Assembly: GCA_021851715.1 (NCBI GenBank)
Contig: JAJZCR010000012.1
Location: 1-64,000 of the forward strand
Length of the DNA: 64,000 bases
Source of the DNA: Planctomycetota bacterium
Lineage (GTDB): Bacteria; Planctomycetota; Phycisphaerae; WQYP01
Reading direction: 5' to 3'
The notes under the pieces are model-generated. The model was not told the origin of the DNA, ran no database searches, and was given only the letters and a program-made list of their open reading frames with translations. The position numbers were made by a program, and so were the translations under genes. Shown here in pieces: positions 42,056 through 47,553 of the stretch (the first letter of the stretch is position 1; the number at the start of each line of letters is the position of its first letter).

Positions 42056-43801
42056 CTACGGCTGATGCAGCTTGGCCGGTGCTGCGACGGGCTTTTCCAG
42101 CCAGGCCTTGCGCAAGATGCGAGGCCACACACTCTGCGGTTGAAAATCGACCCATTGTGTAAGGGTATGCCGCAGTTGCCGGCGATAACCAAGTTGGTAA
42201 TCGATATAGGACAGCAGCATCGCGGCGGAGGGGTTATCCCGCTTGACCAGTTTGTTGAGTTCCCGCCTGGCCGCCCGCAGCGAACCCGCCGGAATTAATT
42301 TCTTGATGTTATACCGCACGGCTGTTAACGCGGGATTGCGATTGAACACGAATTGCAGGTTGTAAGCCGCACTGCCGTAAAGTCCGGCGGCAATTTCAGC
42401 ATGGGCCTGACCAATAATCGCCAGCGGATTAGCGGGGCGCATGGCTAAAGCTCCCTGGAAGGCCTGGATGGCCTGCATAAACTTGCCGGCGTCGATGAGC
42501 TTCTGGCCGTAGGCCATGCTGCGATCAAATTTATCGGTCATGTTGCCGGCCAGCGCCTGCAGAGGCATCAGCTTGCGACCTGCCTGCAGTTCCGTACTGA
42601 GCTTCTTCGGAATGTTTATGCCGTTAGCCCGATTCCAAAGCCTGGCCGCCGTTGGCTTGTTACTGTGCTGTTTCGTCAAGCCTGCTACGACGTGGGCCGA
42701 GGGATTCATAATAGGCAGACCGGTGATGGGATCGATGGTTACCATGCTCTGGGCGGCGGCACTTTGTGGCACAAGATTCGTGAGAGTCATCGCGGGCTGT
42801 CCGGCCAGCCCTGGAGCGACAATGTTGATCTTTTCTCCAGTTTGCAATTCATGGAGTAAATGTTGATAAACGTCGCCGACGCCTCCCGCATTCACCTGGG
42901 CATTTTGTTTGGTGCCCAGGGGCTTGCCGATCTGCGTGGCCTTGACCACCCCACTTAACGGCGTGGTACCCACAGCGGCTCCGCTGGGCCGTGTTCGCTC
43001 CTTCTGGCTTTGCTGACCTGGGATCAAGGCTGGACCATTGTTGGGATTCTGGTTCACTGTGCCGGTCATGCGAGCATAAGCCGCCTGCTGTTGAATGGGG
43101 ATTTCACGCAAACCAAAAAGAGAATTGACATTGCTGCCGGTCGGCGCGATGAGGCCATTTTGTGCCAAACCAATGGTCCTTGGAGAAATTGCGGATGTCG
43201 GACTGCCGTAGATCGATGCAAAGGGACTCGCTGGTCCCACCGGTACCGGCCCGTTGTAGATGGCTGAATTCTGTCCCAGTCCATTTTGGCCGGTCATGCC
43301 CAGGGAAGCTGGAGAATATACACCGTTAATGGTGGCGTTAATGCGCGAGCTGGAACTGGTTACATTGCCTACATTGGAATAAGTATTGATGGGCAGTGCT
43401 CCGGGGGGCGAACTATAGCTGGGCGGAGCGCTGGTTACGATCGGAATTCGGGCGTACGTGACACCCCCGCCAGGTAGCGTAATCGGTACGGTCTGGTAAC
43501 TGGTATGGGCGGTAGAGTTGATATTGTTCATGTACTGGTTGCCGTTGAAGGGCACATAACCCGGAATGGTGGCGTTGCTGCCGCCACTGCCTACCTGATT
43601 ATTGGCATCCAATGCCTGGCCATTTTGCACCTGAACCTGCCCCTGTGCTGCGGCACAGGCCAGGGTAGCCGCGGCAATCCAGATCAAGGTCAAGATGCGA
43701 CTTCCAGATGATGGCGTCGATATTTTCCTTATACGACTGATAATATCAGTGCCATTTTGCCCCTGATTAAGGCCATTCGTCATTTTGCGTACATTTTTCA
43801 T
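42056..43801 (-). CDS. Exported protein with C-terminal TPR-like repeats
   Basis: 581 residues. Signal segment near 36-52 (LTLIWIAAATLACAAAQGQ), then about 320 residues of low-complexity Asn/Gly/Ser/Pro/Gln sequence with no domain I recognise. The last 200 residues form an alpha-helical, TPR-like array, starting with YGQKLIDAGKFMQAIQAFQGALAMRPANPLAI. Likely in the periplasm or outer membrane, as a scaffold or assembly protein; function unknown. GAGGTG before ATG 43801 is a good site. The SpoIIE-phosphatase gene follows 90 bases downstream. Confidence 0.75.
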   Translation of the reverse strand: MKNVRKMTNGLNQGQNGTDIISRIRKISTPSSGSRILTLIWIAAATLACAAAQGQVQVQNGQALDANNQVGSGGSNATIPGYVPFNGNQYMNNINSTAHTSYQTVPITLPGGGVTYARIPIVTSAPPSYSSPPGALPINTYSNVGNVTSSSSRINATINGVYSPASLGMTGQNGLGQNSAIYNGPVPVGPASPFASIYGSPTSAISPRTIGLAQNGLIAPTGSNVNSLFGLREIPIQQQAAYARMTGTVNQNPNNGPALIPGQQSQKERTRPSGAAVGTTPLSGVVKATQIGKPLGTKQNAQVNAGGVGDVYQHLLHELQTGEKINIVAPGLAGQPAMTLTNLVPQSAAAQSMVTIDPITGLPIMNPSAHVVAGLTKQHSNKPTAARLWNRANGINIPKKLSTELQAGRKLMPLQALAGNMTDKFDRSMAYGQKLIDAGKFMQAIQAFQGALAMRPANPLAIIGQAHAEIAAGLYGSAAYNLQFVFNRNPALTAVRYNIKKLIPAGSLRAARRELNKLVKRDNPSAAMLLSYIDYQLGYRRQLRHTLTQWVDFQPQSVWPRILRKAWLEKPVAAPAKLHQP

Positions 43802-43894
43802 AAAGCACCTCTAGTAATGGCTACGCCCAACCAACAACGAGCTTGCCACCACCAATGTATTATACCGTCTGGCCGGCTTAAAAGTGCAAGCGAG

Positions 43895-43920
43895 AGCCGG
43901 CTATGGGCAGCGTTGCCCAT
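43895..43920. terminator. Paired hairpins between the exported TPR gene and dtxR
   Basis: AGCCGGCT (43895-43902) is an 8-bp palindrome directly followed by an ATGGGCA-GCGT-TGCCCAT hairpin (43903-43920). It lies beyond the stop of the leftward DtxR-type gene. There is no T-tract, so a terminator role is only likely by position. Confidence 0.4.
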
Positions 43921-43972
43921 CCCAATTCGTCAGACCGCTATCCATATCATCGCCGAAATAAAGGGTTTTATT

Positions 43973-44656
43973 TCATTTTTTTCGCTCATTCAGTTGAACG
44001 AGAAACTTTTCGGCAACCGAAAAACTCATCGCCTCCACTTGGGTTTCGCCCGGTTTTATCGCCATCAATTCGACCGTTTGGGCCTGATGATTTCGGCTGG
44101 CCACACGAATTTCGGCCCCCGGTAACAAGCCACATTGATTCACATATTGCAAAAATTCAGCACTTTGATCGAGAATTCTGGCAATGCTGGTCGGCTCGCC
44201 GAGCGGACAATCCAGCAAAGTGCAGCAATCCTGGCGGCGAACCACCCCACCCGCCGTAGGTATTGGATCTCCATGCGGATCAAACGCGGGGTGATGCAGT
44301 ATTTCATCGATTCTTGCCAGCAGACGGTCTGATACTACATGCTCCAACTCCTCGGCCTCTTCGTGCACTTCGGACCAATCCAATCCCAGCACCTGTACCA
44401 GGAGCAATTCAATCAACCGATGCCGCCGCAACACATGCAGCGCCAACTGTTCACCGGCCGGAGTTAAACGCACTCCGGCACGCGGTTCATATTCCACCAA
44501 ATGAGCATCGGAAATGGCACGAACCATGGAAGTGGCAGTGCCCGGCGTAACCCCCACCGCCGTTGACAACTTCCCCATGGTCAACCATTGGGTTTCATCG
44601 GCGGGCCGGGAGAGATAAATTTGTTTGAGATAATTTTCAATCGTCCGGCTTGCCAT
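43973..44656 (-). CDS. DtxR/MntR-type metal-dependent transcriptional repressor
   Basis: 227 residues. Residues 1-65 are a winged helix-turn-helix (MASRTIENYLKQIYL, GKLSTAVGVTPGTATSMVRAI), 65-145 the metal-binding/dimer domain (HVLRRHRLIELLLVQVLGLDW, VHEEAEELEHVVSD, HPAFDPHGDPIP), and the C-terminus is an SH3-like FeoA-type domain. This is the iron- or manganese-sensing DtxR family. It diverges from the Nramp gene across a 280-base region with a strong palindrome. Expected to repress metal uptake at high metal. Confidence 0.9.
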   Translation of the reverse strand: MASRTIENYLKQIYLSRPADETQWLTMGKLSTAVGVTPGTATSMVRAISDAHLVEYEPRAGVRLTPAGEQLALHVLRRHRLIELLLVQVLGLDWSEVHEEAEELEHVVSDRLLARIDEILHHPAFDPHGDPIPTAGGVVRRQDCCTLLDCPLGEPTSIARILDQSAEFLQYVNQCGLLPGAEIRVASRNHQAQTVELMAIKPGETQVEAMSFSVAEKFLVQLNERKK

Positions 44657-44739
44657 GGGATCGCCTTTCGTTAAATTTCATGTTTTCATACAGCCTGCCA
44701 ACCACAAACCTCAGCATCCGCATTCTATACTTACCCTGC

Positions 44740-44767
44740 AATTGACTTTGGCAAAGCAAAGTTAATT
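44740..44767. promoter_or_regulatory. 28-bp palindromic operator between dtxR-type and Nramp genes
   Basis: Arms of 11 bp, AATTGACTTTG and CAAAGTTAATT, match at ten of eleven positions around a GCAAAG spacer. The length and AT-rich ends suit a dimeric DtxR/MntR-type repressor. It overlaps the likely rightward Nramp promoter and lies about 85 bases before the repressor start, so it could control both. Binding by the neighbouring repressor is an inference. Confidence 0.6.
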
Positions 44768-44777
44768 ATGCTATAAA
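44748..44777 (+). promoter_or_regulatory. Promoter for the Nramp operon
   Basis: TTGGCA at 44748-44753, an 18-base spacer and TATAAA at 44772-44777. It lies across the right half of the 28-bp palindrome, so bound repressor would block RNA polymerase. The leader would be about 150 bases before ATG 44937. Confidence 0.45.
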
Positions 44778-44936
44778 TCAAATCCATTTGCAAGCCAATA
44801 CATAATTGGTTATATTAAACATCAAATTTCCGGACGATGCGGAAAATTAGAACAAGTAAGCCGCGCCTGAGCGAGGGTGCAACAGATCACGCATGGCTGA
44901 CTCAAACCGCGCGCCGCAAACAGGAGCGTTCCAAAT

Positions 44937-46364
44937 ATGGCCGAGCCAACAGAATCGATGAGAAGCCAGCCCGCCGGGAATCTGCCGGGACTTCTGATTT
45001 CTGATAATACGGCCAATGCCTACGCTACGCCGCCGGAATCTCTCACCCGCGAAGACCTGGCACGGGCCAAGGATCGTTTCGCTGTGGAACGCGCCCGACG
45101 CAATTTTCGTCTGCCCGCTTCCTGGCGCTGGTTGCGTTTGCTCTGGCTTTTAGCAGGTCCGGGAGTGCTGGTTTTTCTGGGAGAAAATGATGCTCCAAGC
45201 ATGCTATCCTATGCGGCAACAGGATCGCAATTCGGCATCGGATTTTTTCTGCCATTTATTGTGATGACCTTTGCCGCAGCATGGATCGTGCAGGAAATGA
45301 CCGTGCGCCTGGGTGCGGTTACCCACCGCGGCCATGCAGAAATGATTTTTGACCGGTTTGGCCCATTCTGGGGAATTTTCTCCATGGGAGACCTGGTCTT
45401 GGGAAATTTCCTCACGCTCATCACTGAATTCATCGGCATCAGGGCGGGCTTGAGTTTTTTCGGCGTACCGCCGCTGGTAGCCGTCGGCGGAGCCTTGGTG
45501 CTTATTCTGGCCGTCACCATGACATCTCGCTATTGGACGTGGGAACGTATTCTGCTGACCATCGCTCTATTTAACGGCTTATTTATTCCCGTGGCCCTTC
45601 TCACCCACCCGAACTGGCACGCGGTAGGACACGCTTTTCTCACGTGGAGCCCACTGCCGGGCGGCCTGGATTCCAACAACATCATCATGATGATGGCCGA
45701 CATTGGGGCCACTGTGACACCATGGATGCTCTTTTTTCAACAAGGGGCCACCACCGACAAAGGCATGCAGCCGCGGGACGTCAACTTCGGTCGCTGGGAC
45801 ACCTCCATAGGCACCCTGCTGGCGGCCACCTTCGGTATTGCCGCGGTACTGGCCACGGTGCCGCTGCATATCCACGGCATCAGCGCAGCCAATTTCCAGG
45901 GTGCACAATTTGCCCAGGCGATTGAGCCGTATGTCGGAAGACTTGGGTCCACCCTGTTTGCCCTGGGCCTGGTGGAAGCCGGATTGGTCGCAGCCATCAG
46001 CATTTCCACATCTTCTGCCTACGCCTTCGGCGAGGTGCTGCATCACGCCCACAGTCTTAACCGCACGGTTAAAGAAGCCTGGCCGTTCTATCTCGTACTG
46101 ACCGGCTCGGCCCTGGCCGCCGGGGCCATCGTGCTGATCCCCCATGCCCCCCTGGAATTCATTGTGCTTATCGTCAATGTGATTGCCGTATTGGCCATGC
46201 CCCCGGCCCTGCTTTTTCTGCTGCTTTTAGTCAATGACCGGCAGGTTATGGGCGACCGGGTGAATAGTTTGTGGCTTAATATCGCCGGAATCTCCGTTAC
46301 CGTAGCTTTAATCGTCGCCGGCATTAGCTACGCTCTTACCGTTGTGTTTCCTCAACTGTTTTAA
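44937..46364 (+). CDS. Nramp (SLC11)-family transporter with divergent metal-site motifs
   Basis: 475 residues with about eleven TM helices after a 70-residue N-terminal tail. TM1 aligns as GPGVLVFLGENDAPSMLSY: the usual DPGN motif is replaced by NDAPS. TM6, which normally carries MPH, reads GATVTPWMLFFQQ. The methionine used to select transition metals is thus absent, as in Nramp-related magnesium transporters and other outgroup clades. Neighbouring control by a DtxR-type repressor favours iron or manganese, so its ion is unclear. Inner-membrane protein. A 78-residue membrane protein follows 13 bases later. Confidence 0.85.
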   Translation: MAEPTESMRSQPAGNLPGLLISDNTANAYATPPESLTREDLARAKDRFAVERARRNFRLPASWRWLRLLWLLAGPGVLVFLGENDAPSMLSYAATGSQFGIGFFLPFIVMTFAAAWIVQEMTVRLGAVTHRGHAEMIFDRFGPFWGIFSMGDLVLGNFLTLITEFIGIRAGLSFFGVPPLVAVGGALVLILAVTMTSRYWTWERILLTIALFNGLFIPVALLTHPNWHAVGHAFLTWSPLPGGLDSNNIIMMMADIGATVTPWMLFFQQGATTDKGMQPRDVNFGRWDTSIGTLLAATFGIAAVLATVPLHIHGISAANFQGAQFAQAIEPYVGRLGSTLFALGLVEAGLVAAISISTSSAYAFGEVLHHAHSLNRTVKEAWPFYLVLTGSALAAGAIVLIPHAPLEFIVLIVNVIAVLAMPPALLFLLLLVNDRQVMGDRVNSLWLNIAGISVTVALIVAGISYALTVVFPQLF

Positions 46365-46377
46365 GCAGGAGTCTCAT

Positions 46378-46614
46378 ATGCCAACCGCAGCCAACGACAG
46401 CAACAATCCACACGGACCGCATCCCAGCCCGGCCTCCGAGTCTAAGCTGGTTCACGCCGTACTGGAAGAGGACCAGCTCTACGCGTTTAAACAGAAAACC
46501 CATTTCGGGCGGCGCGAGATTTCACCCAACCTGCATATCCTTTTGTGGGCGCTGCGCATTTATGTTCTTGTCATGATGGTAATTGTGGTGGTGCAGATTT
46601 TACGCATCATTTAA
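46378..46614 (+). CDS. Small single-TM membrane protein following the Nramp gene
   Basis: 78 residues from ATG 46378, with AGGAG six bases upstream. A soluble N-terminus (Asn/His/Pro-rich, then acidic) precedes a single C-terminal TM segment (about 53-76, ILLWALRIYVLVMMVIVVVQ). No family recognised. The spacing and direction make it a likely accessory part of the metal transporter (inference). Confidence 0.65.
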   Translation: MPTAANDSNNPHGPHPSPASESKLVHAVLEEDQLYAFKQKTHFGRREISPNLHILLWALRIYVLVMMVIVVVQILRII

Positions 46615-46654
46615 ATCCAGGCTTCTAGACCGCTGCCGTCCGCCAACGCAGTTC

Positions 46655-47278
46655 TTATTGACGCCGACGGCACCTGACGCCCAGCAGCGATATACCCAAC
46701 ATCGCCATGAGTGCCAGCGTGCGTGATTCCGGCACCGACGTAATCGGAGGATTGGTAAACGTCGTAAGCCCGCTCCCCGGCACCGATTGGCCCGGAGCAA
46801 TGCTGTCAAAGCCGGACCCGATCTGATACGGTTGAAAACCCGCCACCGGAATAAAATCATTGTTGCCTGCCGTGCCTGCATCATCACCGCCATCCGAGAC
46901 GACCTCCGCCACGTACACCTGATCTCCGACTACTTGCTTGAGTTCTCCGCCCTGCACATCCGTCTCGCCCAGCGCACCCTCGCCGCCATTGGTACCGACA
47001 AATACACTCACGCTTTCATGCGCCACGTTGAAATCCATGCGCGAAACATCGTCAAAAAATTGCGAGTAGGCGTTATTGCCGGCCAGCGTACCGCCGCTGA
47101 TATGCGTACGAAATAATGTGGCCAGAGTGGTGCCGGAATTCATCAGATCTGCCGGGCCATTTTGCGAAACGTTGACAATAGTCACAGTGCTGCCCTTTGC
47201 CGCAGCACCGGTGCCTAGCGCCAATCCCGCCATCACCGACCAAATCATCGCATTGTGAGCCGTGTTCTGTTTACCCAT
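46655..47278 (-). CDS. PEP-CTERM-like exported protein, paralogue 2
   Basis: 207 residues from ATG 47278, behind AGGAGAGAGAATC. Signal peptide (MIWSVMAGLALGTGAAA), body sharing NGPAD, GNNAYSQ, GGEGALGETDVQGGEL and QVYVAE with the protein at 36359-36973, and a C-terminal SVPESRTLALM, a TM helix and CRRRQ. The sorting motif is VPES rather than the usual VPEP, still acceptable for the PEP-CTERM class. Probably the same kind of exported surface protein; the gene is convergent with the Nramp operon. Confidence 0.82.
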   Translation of the reverse strand: MGKQNTAHNAMIWSVMAGLALGTGAAAKGSTVTIVNVSQNGPADLMNSGTTLATLFRTHISGGTLAGNNAYSQFFDDVSRMDFNVAHESVSVFVGTNGGEGALGETDVQGGELKQVVGDQVYVAEVVSDGGDDAGTAGNNDFIPVAGFQPYQIGSGFDSIAPGQSVPGSGLTTFTNPPITSVPESRTLALMAMLGISLLGVRCRRRQ

Positions 47279-47553
47279 GATTCTCTCTCCTTTTTCGGCG
47301 TGGGACCAAGCCGATCCACATGAATACCACCGCAAGCGGCTGTCGGGGAAAACCCCGGCCCAATTAATTTTCAACCGCTTTCGCGGCAAGTTCCCTACGG
47401 AACTTCATTCTCTGCGTCTGCATACCCTTGCCAGTAGAGCTGTTACTTCCTACCCTCACCATCTCATGGAGCTATCGACTTTTCGACACCATGGCAGTAT
47501 TTTTTTTAATTATCGGCCATCATCGCCGGTAAAAGGCGGCCGGACATGCAATA

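Follow-up and report, generated by a model that had tools for sequence, protein, structure and literature searches.

The Nramp-related carrier encoded by this locus is probably a protein of the NRMT lineage that was recruited as an MntR-repressed importer of Mn(II), perhaps also of Fe(II), and that replaces MntH together with a small partner protein. Its assignment as a probable replacement importer of manganese (or iron), and not of magnesium, is argued from the gene slot, which is that of mntH, from the switch, which is the same, and from the small membrane partner encoded next to it. The features of the module within the window, the whole stretch of 64,000 nucleotides that was analysed, are collected in Table 1. 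An earlier sequence-only reading covered the interval that includes the third gene, which is absent from its text; 13 bases separate this gene from the stop codon of the carrier. Just 3' of the module, on the minus strand, lies a gene (46655–47389) with a PEP-CTERM-like tail (VPESRTLALMAMLGISLLGVRCRRRQ).

Table 1. Layout of the metal-uptake module (positions in the window)
Feature	Position	Strand	Remarks
DtxR/MntR-family metalloregulator gene	43973..44656	-	227 aa; PF01325 + PF02742 + PF04023
28-bp imperfect palindrome, candidate operator	44740..44767	.	overlaps weak promoter-like match
Nramp-related carrier gene	44937..46364	+	475 aa; PF01566 E 4e-56
78-aa one-helix protein gene	46378..46614	+	AGGAG ahead of start; helix predicted from sequence

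The carrier had been described as an Nramp with non-canonical motifs, and inspection of the sequence bears this out. TM1 reads LGENDAPSML and TM6 reads GATVTPWMLFF, the DPGN motif being replaced by D85-A-P-S88 and MPH by TPW. The alignments place A258-T-V-T261-P262-W263 in TM6 and give D85, S88, A258 and T261 as the residues of the metal site (DxxS/AxxT, abbreviated DS/AT). The canonical motifs were not recovered by alignment, as NDAPS pairs with NDAGG of EleNRMT and TPW with its APW. The carrier is a member of PF01566 (191 bits versus a curated cut-off of 29.8), as an ordinary MntH with misread motifs would be, but such an identity is extremely improbable, since the protein shares only about 22% identity with the real MntH of its family, belongs to a separate clade, and carries DAPS and TPW in columns that are fixed in 16 orthologues. 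Within the family, canonical MntH proteins score 381–413 bits against PF01566 and the other full-length matches 191–243. The same columns, with only the second position varying between A and G, are also fixed in the best 80 of 547 relatives found in a scan of a genome collection (57–95% identity), where the P-W of TM6 is conserved partly by construction because PWMLFFQ was one of the two scan patterns; DAPS and GATVT, unlike P-W, are independent of the scan pattern. All of these best 80 relatives have END[AG]PSM in TM1.

The residues of the proton path also set the carrier apart from canonical SLC11/MntH proteins. In the columns aligned with ScaDMT, the canonical His pair of TM6b is replaced by W263 and Q268 and the Asp of TM3 by L161, and Glu164 of TM3 is retained. 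Because most of the canonical proton-path residues are missing, proton coupling is doubtful, and metal uptake by the carrier would probably proceed uncoupled from protons. Much the same changes are described for EleNRMT (PMC8806188). In the AlphaFold model, built from 46 aligned sequences (mean pLDDT 87.1, pTM 0.86), the helices break in TM1 at residues 84–85 and in TM6 at 258–261, and the odd residues are therefore placed within the unwound metal site or at its edge. The closest fold is that of EleNRMT (TM-score 0.88 on the target), followed by the Deinococcus Nramp, with NRAT at rank 26; EleNRMT is likewise the best phmmer match (E 2.4e-42).

The published signatures are DxxN-A/CxxM for Fe/Mn carriers, DxxN-AxxT for NRAT, the Al(III) carriers of plants, and DxxG-TxxA/T for NRMT (PMC8806188). 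The DxxS-AxxT site matches none of them: two or three of its four positions differ from the NRMT signature, and with respect to NRAT the A..T of TM6 agrees and the N of TM1 is replaced by S. Transport of another ion, for example Al(III), or a role in metal or acid tolerance instead of nutrition, would draw on this shared TM6 signature and on the acidophilic habit of several hosts. It is nevertheless a very unlikely function, given the S of TM1, a fold nearer to EleNRMT and MntH than to NRAT, the MntR-type control and the mntH slot. After redundancy filtering, which reduced 161 Nramp ORFs to 90, to which two references were added, DxxS-AxxT proved common to 69 of the 92 sequences. All 44 DS/AT rows form one clade (support 0.926) in a FastTree tree of 114 sequences, with five DG/TA proteins as sister group (0.997), including one encoded on the Acidithiobacillus caldus SM-1 megaplasmid. 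Both are nested within DG/TT and DG/TA proteins, with canonical MntH outside. IQ-TREE, run on 57 of the same 114 rows, agrees (UFBoot 80 for DS/AT, 100 for DS/AT plus the five DG/TA proteins); here EleNRMT is found in another branch than DS/AT, and canonical MntH is again outside. Support for DS/AT monophyly is moderate. The nesting indicates that the DS/AT clade arose within the Nramp-related proteins, a group called paraphyletic in the 2026 BfraNramp preprint (PMC12873925). In line with the sequence-only reading, the carrier falls in this NRMT/Nramp-related part of the tree and not in a plain Mn/Fe Nramp clade.

Within the family the two carriers are mutually exclusive. Among 28 family genomes, 16 encode a DS/AT Nramp (at least 71% identity), nine a canonical MntH, none both and three neither, these last being bins of 53–76% completeness. 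Genus g4 holds both states (G007, G016 and G021 versus G023). The orthologous regulator is divergent to the DS/AT gene in 15 of the 16 genomes, the exception being G008, with no linked regulator and no exact box (see below) upstream of its DS/AT gene. In five genomes of sister genera (G010, G011, G012, G014 and G019) the gene transcribed divergently from the orthologous regulator encodes a protein with the DPGNW motif, and in G013 it encodes a canonical MntH. Outside the family, 19 of the 20 genomes examined with a DS/AT Nramp are without canonical MntH, and one (G456) has both. In Acidobacteriota the DS/AT clade is present in 3 of 197 genomes, and canonical MntH occurs in none of these three, a number too small to weigh as evidence of exclusivity, versus 52 of the 197; of 13 other genomes whose best match is a 36–46% relative, ten have canonical MntH. 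The second of two carrier/regulator modules in G003 (on C192) is almost identical to the one in G021, a genome of a different genus, and is perhaps a recent transfer or a misbinned contig.

A 28-bp palindrome had been reported between the divergent regulator and carrier genes, and it is indeed present (AATTGACTTTGGCAAAGCAAAGTTAATT), with pairing at 9 of 10 outer arm positions around an 8-bp centre. The bare palindrome was rejected as evidence, since the window has six such 28-mers, where 20 shuffles gave 2.55 on average; it is convincing because it is conserved and not because it is rare. Its centre, GACTTTG-GCAAAG-CAAAGTT, is a degenerate version of a family box, TTTGA-N4-TCAAA, which is found in exact form upstream of the DS/AT gene in all seven g2 and all three g4 genomes and upstream of canonical mntH in seven of nine (G009 and G017 are without it in the loci read). 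In shuffled controls an exact box appeared in 0–1 of 2000 for each of the 14 regions outside g1, the genus of the window. A matrix built from the 14 non-g1 sites ranks the palindrome first in the 64-kb window (8.5 bits, the next site scoring 6.9), and a match to the box, one or two mismatches off, stands at the equivalent place in all five g1 genomes. The window copy is the weakest of these five, as 37 of 1000 intergenic shuffles score as high, compared with 1–3 of 1000 for the other four. On the basis of this conservation across genomes the palindrome is the likely operator of the regulator, as had been proposed. A weak promoter-like match, with a -35-like TTGACT (44742) inside the palindrome and AATTAT ending at 44769, would fit repression by promoter blocking.

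A wider regulon was looked for with the pattern AYTTTG-N6-CAAART and rejected: the pattern occurs once in each of G000 (the genome of the window), G001, G002 and G004 and twice in G003, where the second site falls within an unrelated ORF or at its border and looks like chance. The number of sites proves nothing by itself, since a reversed-pattern control also gives 0–2 per genome.

The regulator is of the DtxR/MntR type, as first proposed, judging from its Pfam domains and its relatives in the PDB. An N-terminal DNA-binding domain is followed by a metal-binding/dimerisation domain and an FeoA domain; the protein aligns with Mn-type regulators and scores below the cut-offs of the NCBIfam MntR models. 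The metal ligands include Asp8 and Glu99 in MntR and Met10 and Cys102 in DtxR, as given in PMC4805248. In a motif scan, the window regulator has Glu at the Glu99/Cys102 site and Asn at the Asp8/Met10 site. Among 114 regulator ORFs (redundant loci included), the first site is occupied by Glu in 108, by Gly in one and by Cys in none, with five unmatched, and the second by Asn in 80 and by Asp in eight, with 26 unmatched. Given Glu at the 99 site and mostly Asn at the 8 site, manganese sensing is likely, not certain, and the Asn means that the ligands do not settle the choice between Mn and Fe.

This leaves some room for an iron-sensing regulator and a carrier that imports chiefly Fe(II), an arrangement that would agree with the missing Asp8, with the FeoA domain and with the use that Fe(II) control might have in an acid, iron-rich habitat. 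We consider it unlikely, because the regulator has neither the Met nor the Cys that mark the iron site of DtxR/IdeR and has Glu at the MntR position, and because it stands at mntH in sister genera. Two more distant relatives of the regulator are encoded near ABC-3 metal permeases, and the one in G032 lies by a ZnuA/ABC-3 operon and not by feo or siderophore genes. ABC-3 metal permeases with a C-terminal DtxR metal-binding domain (PF02742) were also observed at two loci (L075:1896-3431 and L070:2605-3963).

The loss of the TM6 methionine had been taken to point to magnesium. This is not supported: as PMC8806188 describes them, EcoDMT M235A and a triple NRMT-like mutant still transport Mn(II) and do not acquire transport of Mg(II). 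It had also been argued that substrate and regulator disagree. That puzzle dissolves because methionine loss is no mark of magnesium, and the orthologous regulator and its box stand at canonical mntH in sister genera. Transport of Mn(II) is described for EleNRMT (PMC8806188) and, without protons, for BfraNramp (PMC12873925), and Mn uptake is restored in full by NrmT of Acidobacterium capsulatum (PMC4072509).

Against a manganese carrier speak the closest solved structure, which is that of a Mg(II) transporter, and the nesting of the DS/AT clade among DG/T proteins, which have the NRMT signature. A true NRMT importing Mg(II), placed by chance under a transition-metal sensor, would explain both this nesting and the best match to EleNRMT in sequence and fold. 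It would also suit the genome of the window (3.87 Mb, 154 contigs), where at 88% completeness neither CorA nor an MgtE membrane domain was found; Mg uptake there may rest on Nramp-related carriers or on carriers that were not searched for. We nonetheless judge the magnesium assignment improbable. The metal site is off the NRMT signature, the carrier occupies the mntH slot with the mntH box, and the locus is without the M-box or MgtE_N partner that is frequent, not universal, in NRMT. No Rfam match was found at 43500–47500, hence no M-box there, and none in six other Nramp loci; control of the module by an M-box or another riboswitch was therefore rejected. An MgtE-like partner is likewise missing from the window locus and was seen at the loci of only one of the best 80 of 547 relatives, as a distant fragment. 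The genome also holds three further Nramp loci, two of them with the DxxG-TxxT signature (C115 and C21), on which Mg uptake may depend; at C115 (L002:1381-4099) the NRMT-type gene is followed by a PRC/MgtE_N/CBS protein.

The third of these loci (C110, L001:1345-2640) represents an Nramp-related class, DxxS-AxxM-PW, in which the TM6 Met is kept without MPH; in Acidiphilium relatives of this class the TM1 Asp is changed to Glu (TEVGS). Further downstream of the C115-type NRMT locus, several related genomes encode a one-helix protein.

The replacement importer appears to come with a partner. A one-helix protein is encoded near 77 of the best 80 of 547 relatives (phmmer matches with E no higher than 0.01), downstream of the carrier in most and upstream in nine. 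With a wider profile it was detected beside 79 of 82 distinct DS/AT carriers, and in other classes beside 13 of 23 DG/TT, 7 of 16 DG/TA and 4 of 4 DA/TA carriers; in the DG/TT loci it lies about 1.3 kb downstream, with an MgtE-like gene between in those looked at. It was found at none of the 17 DS/AM, four ES/AM, four DG/TS and 17 canonical MntH loci. The profile was trained by score on the loci on which it was counted, and the zeros of the canonical and DS/AM classes, with flanks mostly of 1.5 kb, serve as control. The core of the protein consists of a basic stretch followed by a helix around L-R-x-Y-x-x-x-M, the former suggesting a cytoplasmic N-terminus. The 78-aa protein of the window matches no Pfam or NCBIfam model at E 0.001, and at E 1 a weak TrkH match appeared in one of five members tried. 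No one-helix component of Nramp-type transport was found in the portions of the literature returned by a search. From its conserved place beside these carriers, the 78-aa protein is probably an accessory subunit that would stabilise or gate the carrier.

On the A. caldus SM-1 megaplasmid (L257:833-5417), a DG/TA Nramp-related gene has a one-helix partner of the same kind, and the locus adjoins genes for two cation diffusion facilitators as well as cadR.

The best 80 of 547 relatives come from Planctomycetota, Acidobacteria, metagenome-assembled genomes labelled Bacillota, Acidiphilium, Alicyclobacillus, Sulfobacillus, Methylacidiphilales, Spartobacteria and one cyanobacterium, several of these host groups being acidophiles. 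A DtxR-family ORF adjoins 40 of them (21 divergent, 18 upstream on the same strand and one downstream), and the other 40 have no DtxR-family gene in the flank examined. At other Nramp loci such an ORF was present in 0 of 18 DG/TT, 0 of 12 DS/AM and 6 of 9 canonical cases. That the linkage recurs in different arrangements points to a functional connection and not to one inherited block.

Taken as a repressed replacement of MntH, the module would work as follows. The Mn(II)-loaded regulator would bind the palindrome and silence the divergent promoter from which the carrier and its small partner are transcribed; under metal shortage the regulator would release the palindrome, and both would be expressed for uptake. 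The carrier would then import Mn(II), perhaps Fe(II), doing the job that MntH does in the sister genera, and at low outside pH an uncoupled carrier might avoid a proton leak. On a larger scale, and more tentatively, a magnesium-type Nramp lineage may have had its site changed to DxxS/AxxT, been captured by MntR and displaced MntH in several, often acidophilic, phyla, as a two-part carrier whose subunit is shared with NRMT.

The substrate of Nramp-type proteins is usually read from two short motifs, and the rule that no Met means Mg would misname the DS/AT genes, because here a site with neither the TM6 Met nor the NRMT signature sits under Mn-type control in the place of MntH. The DS/AT carriers thus offer a natural test of how Mn is chosen over Mg without methionine, and they bear on the purpose of proton coupling at low pH; the module bears on whether NRMT-type carriers have the conserved one-helix protein as a subunit. 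The puzzle that is left is a sharper one, namely how DxxS/AxxT selects manganese and what the one-helix partner does.

Among known systems, BfraNramp (clade B) is an uncoupled Mn(II) importer that retains the TM3 Glu (PMC12873925), a mode of transport that the window carrier may share; unlike the latter, it keeps DPGN and MPH. NrmT of A. capsulatum (Acp2977), likened here from its published description, is Nramp-related and gives Mg rescue only at low-millimolar Mg, and its gene, unlike that of the window carrier, adjoins an MgtE-N-like gene (PMC4072509). With NRMT (EleNRMT, 7qia/7qji; CabNRMT) the carrier has in common the change of the TM6b His to Trp and the retained TM3 Glu, and several NRMT-type loci share the same kind of small one-helix protein; the carrier differs in having DxxS/AxxT in place of DxxG/TxxA or T, and MntR-type control in place of an M-box or MgtE_N partner. 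Compared with canonical MntH (SLC11) under MntR, it is without DPGN and MPH, has W, Q and L instead of the TM6 His pair and TM3 Asp, and has a one-helix neighbour that is seen at none of 17 canonical loci, whereas the gene slot, the divergent regulator, the box and, presumably, the function are the same.
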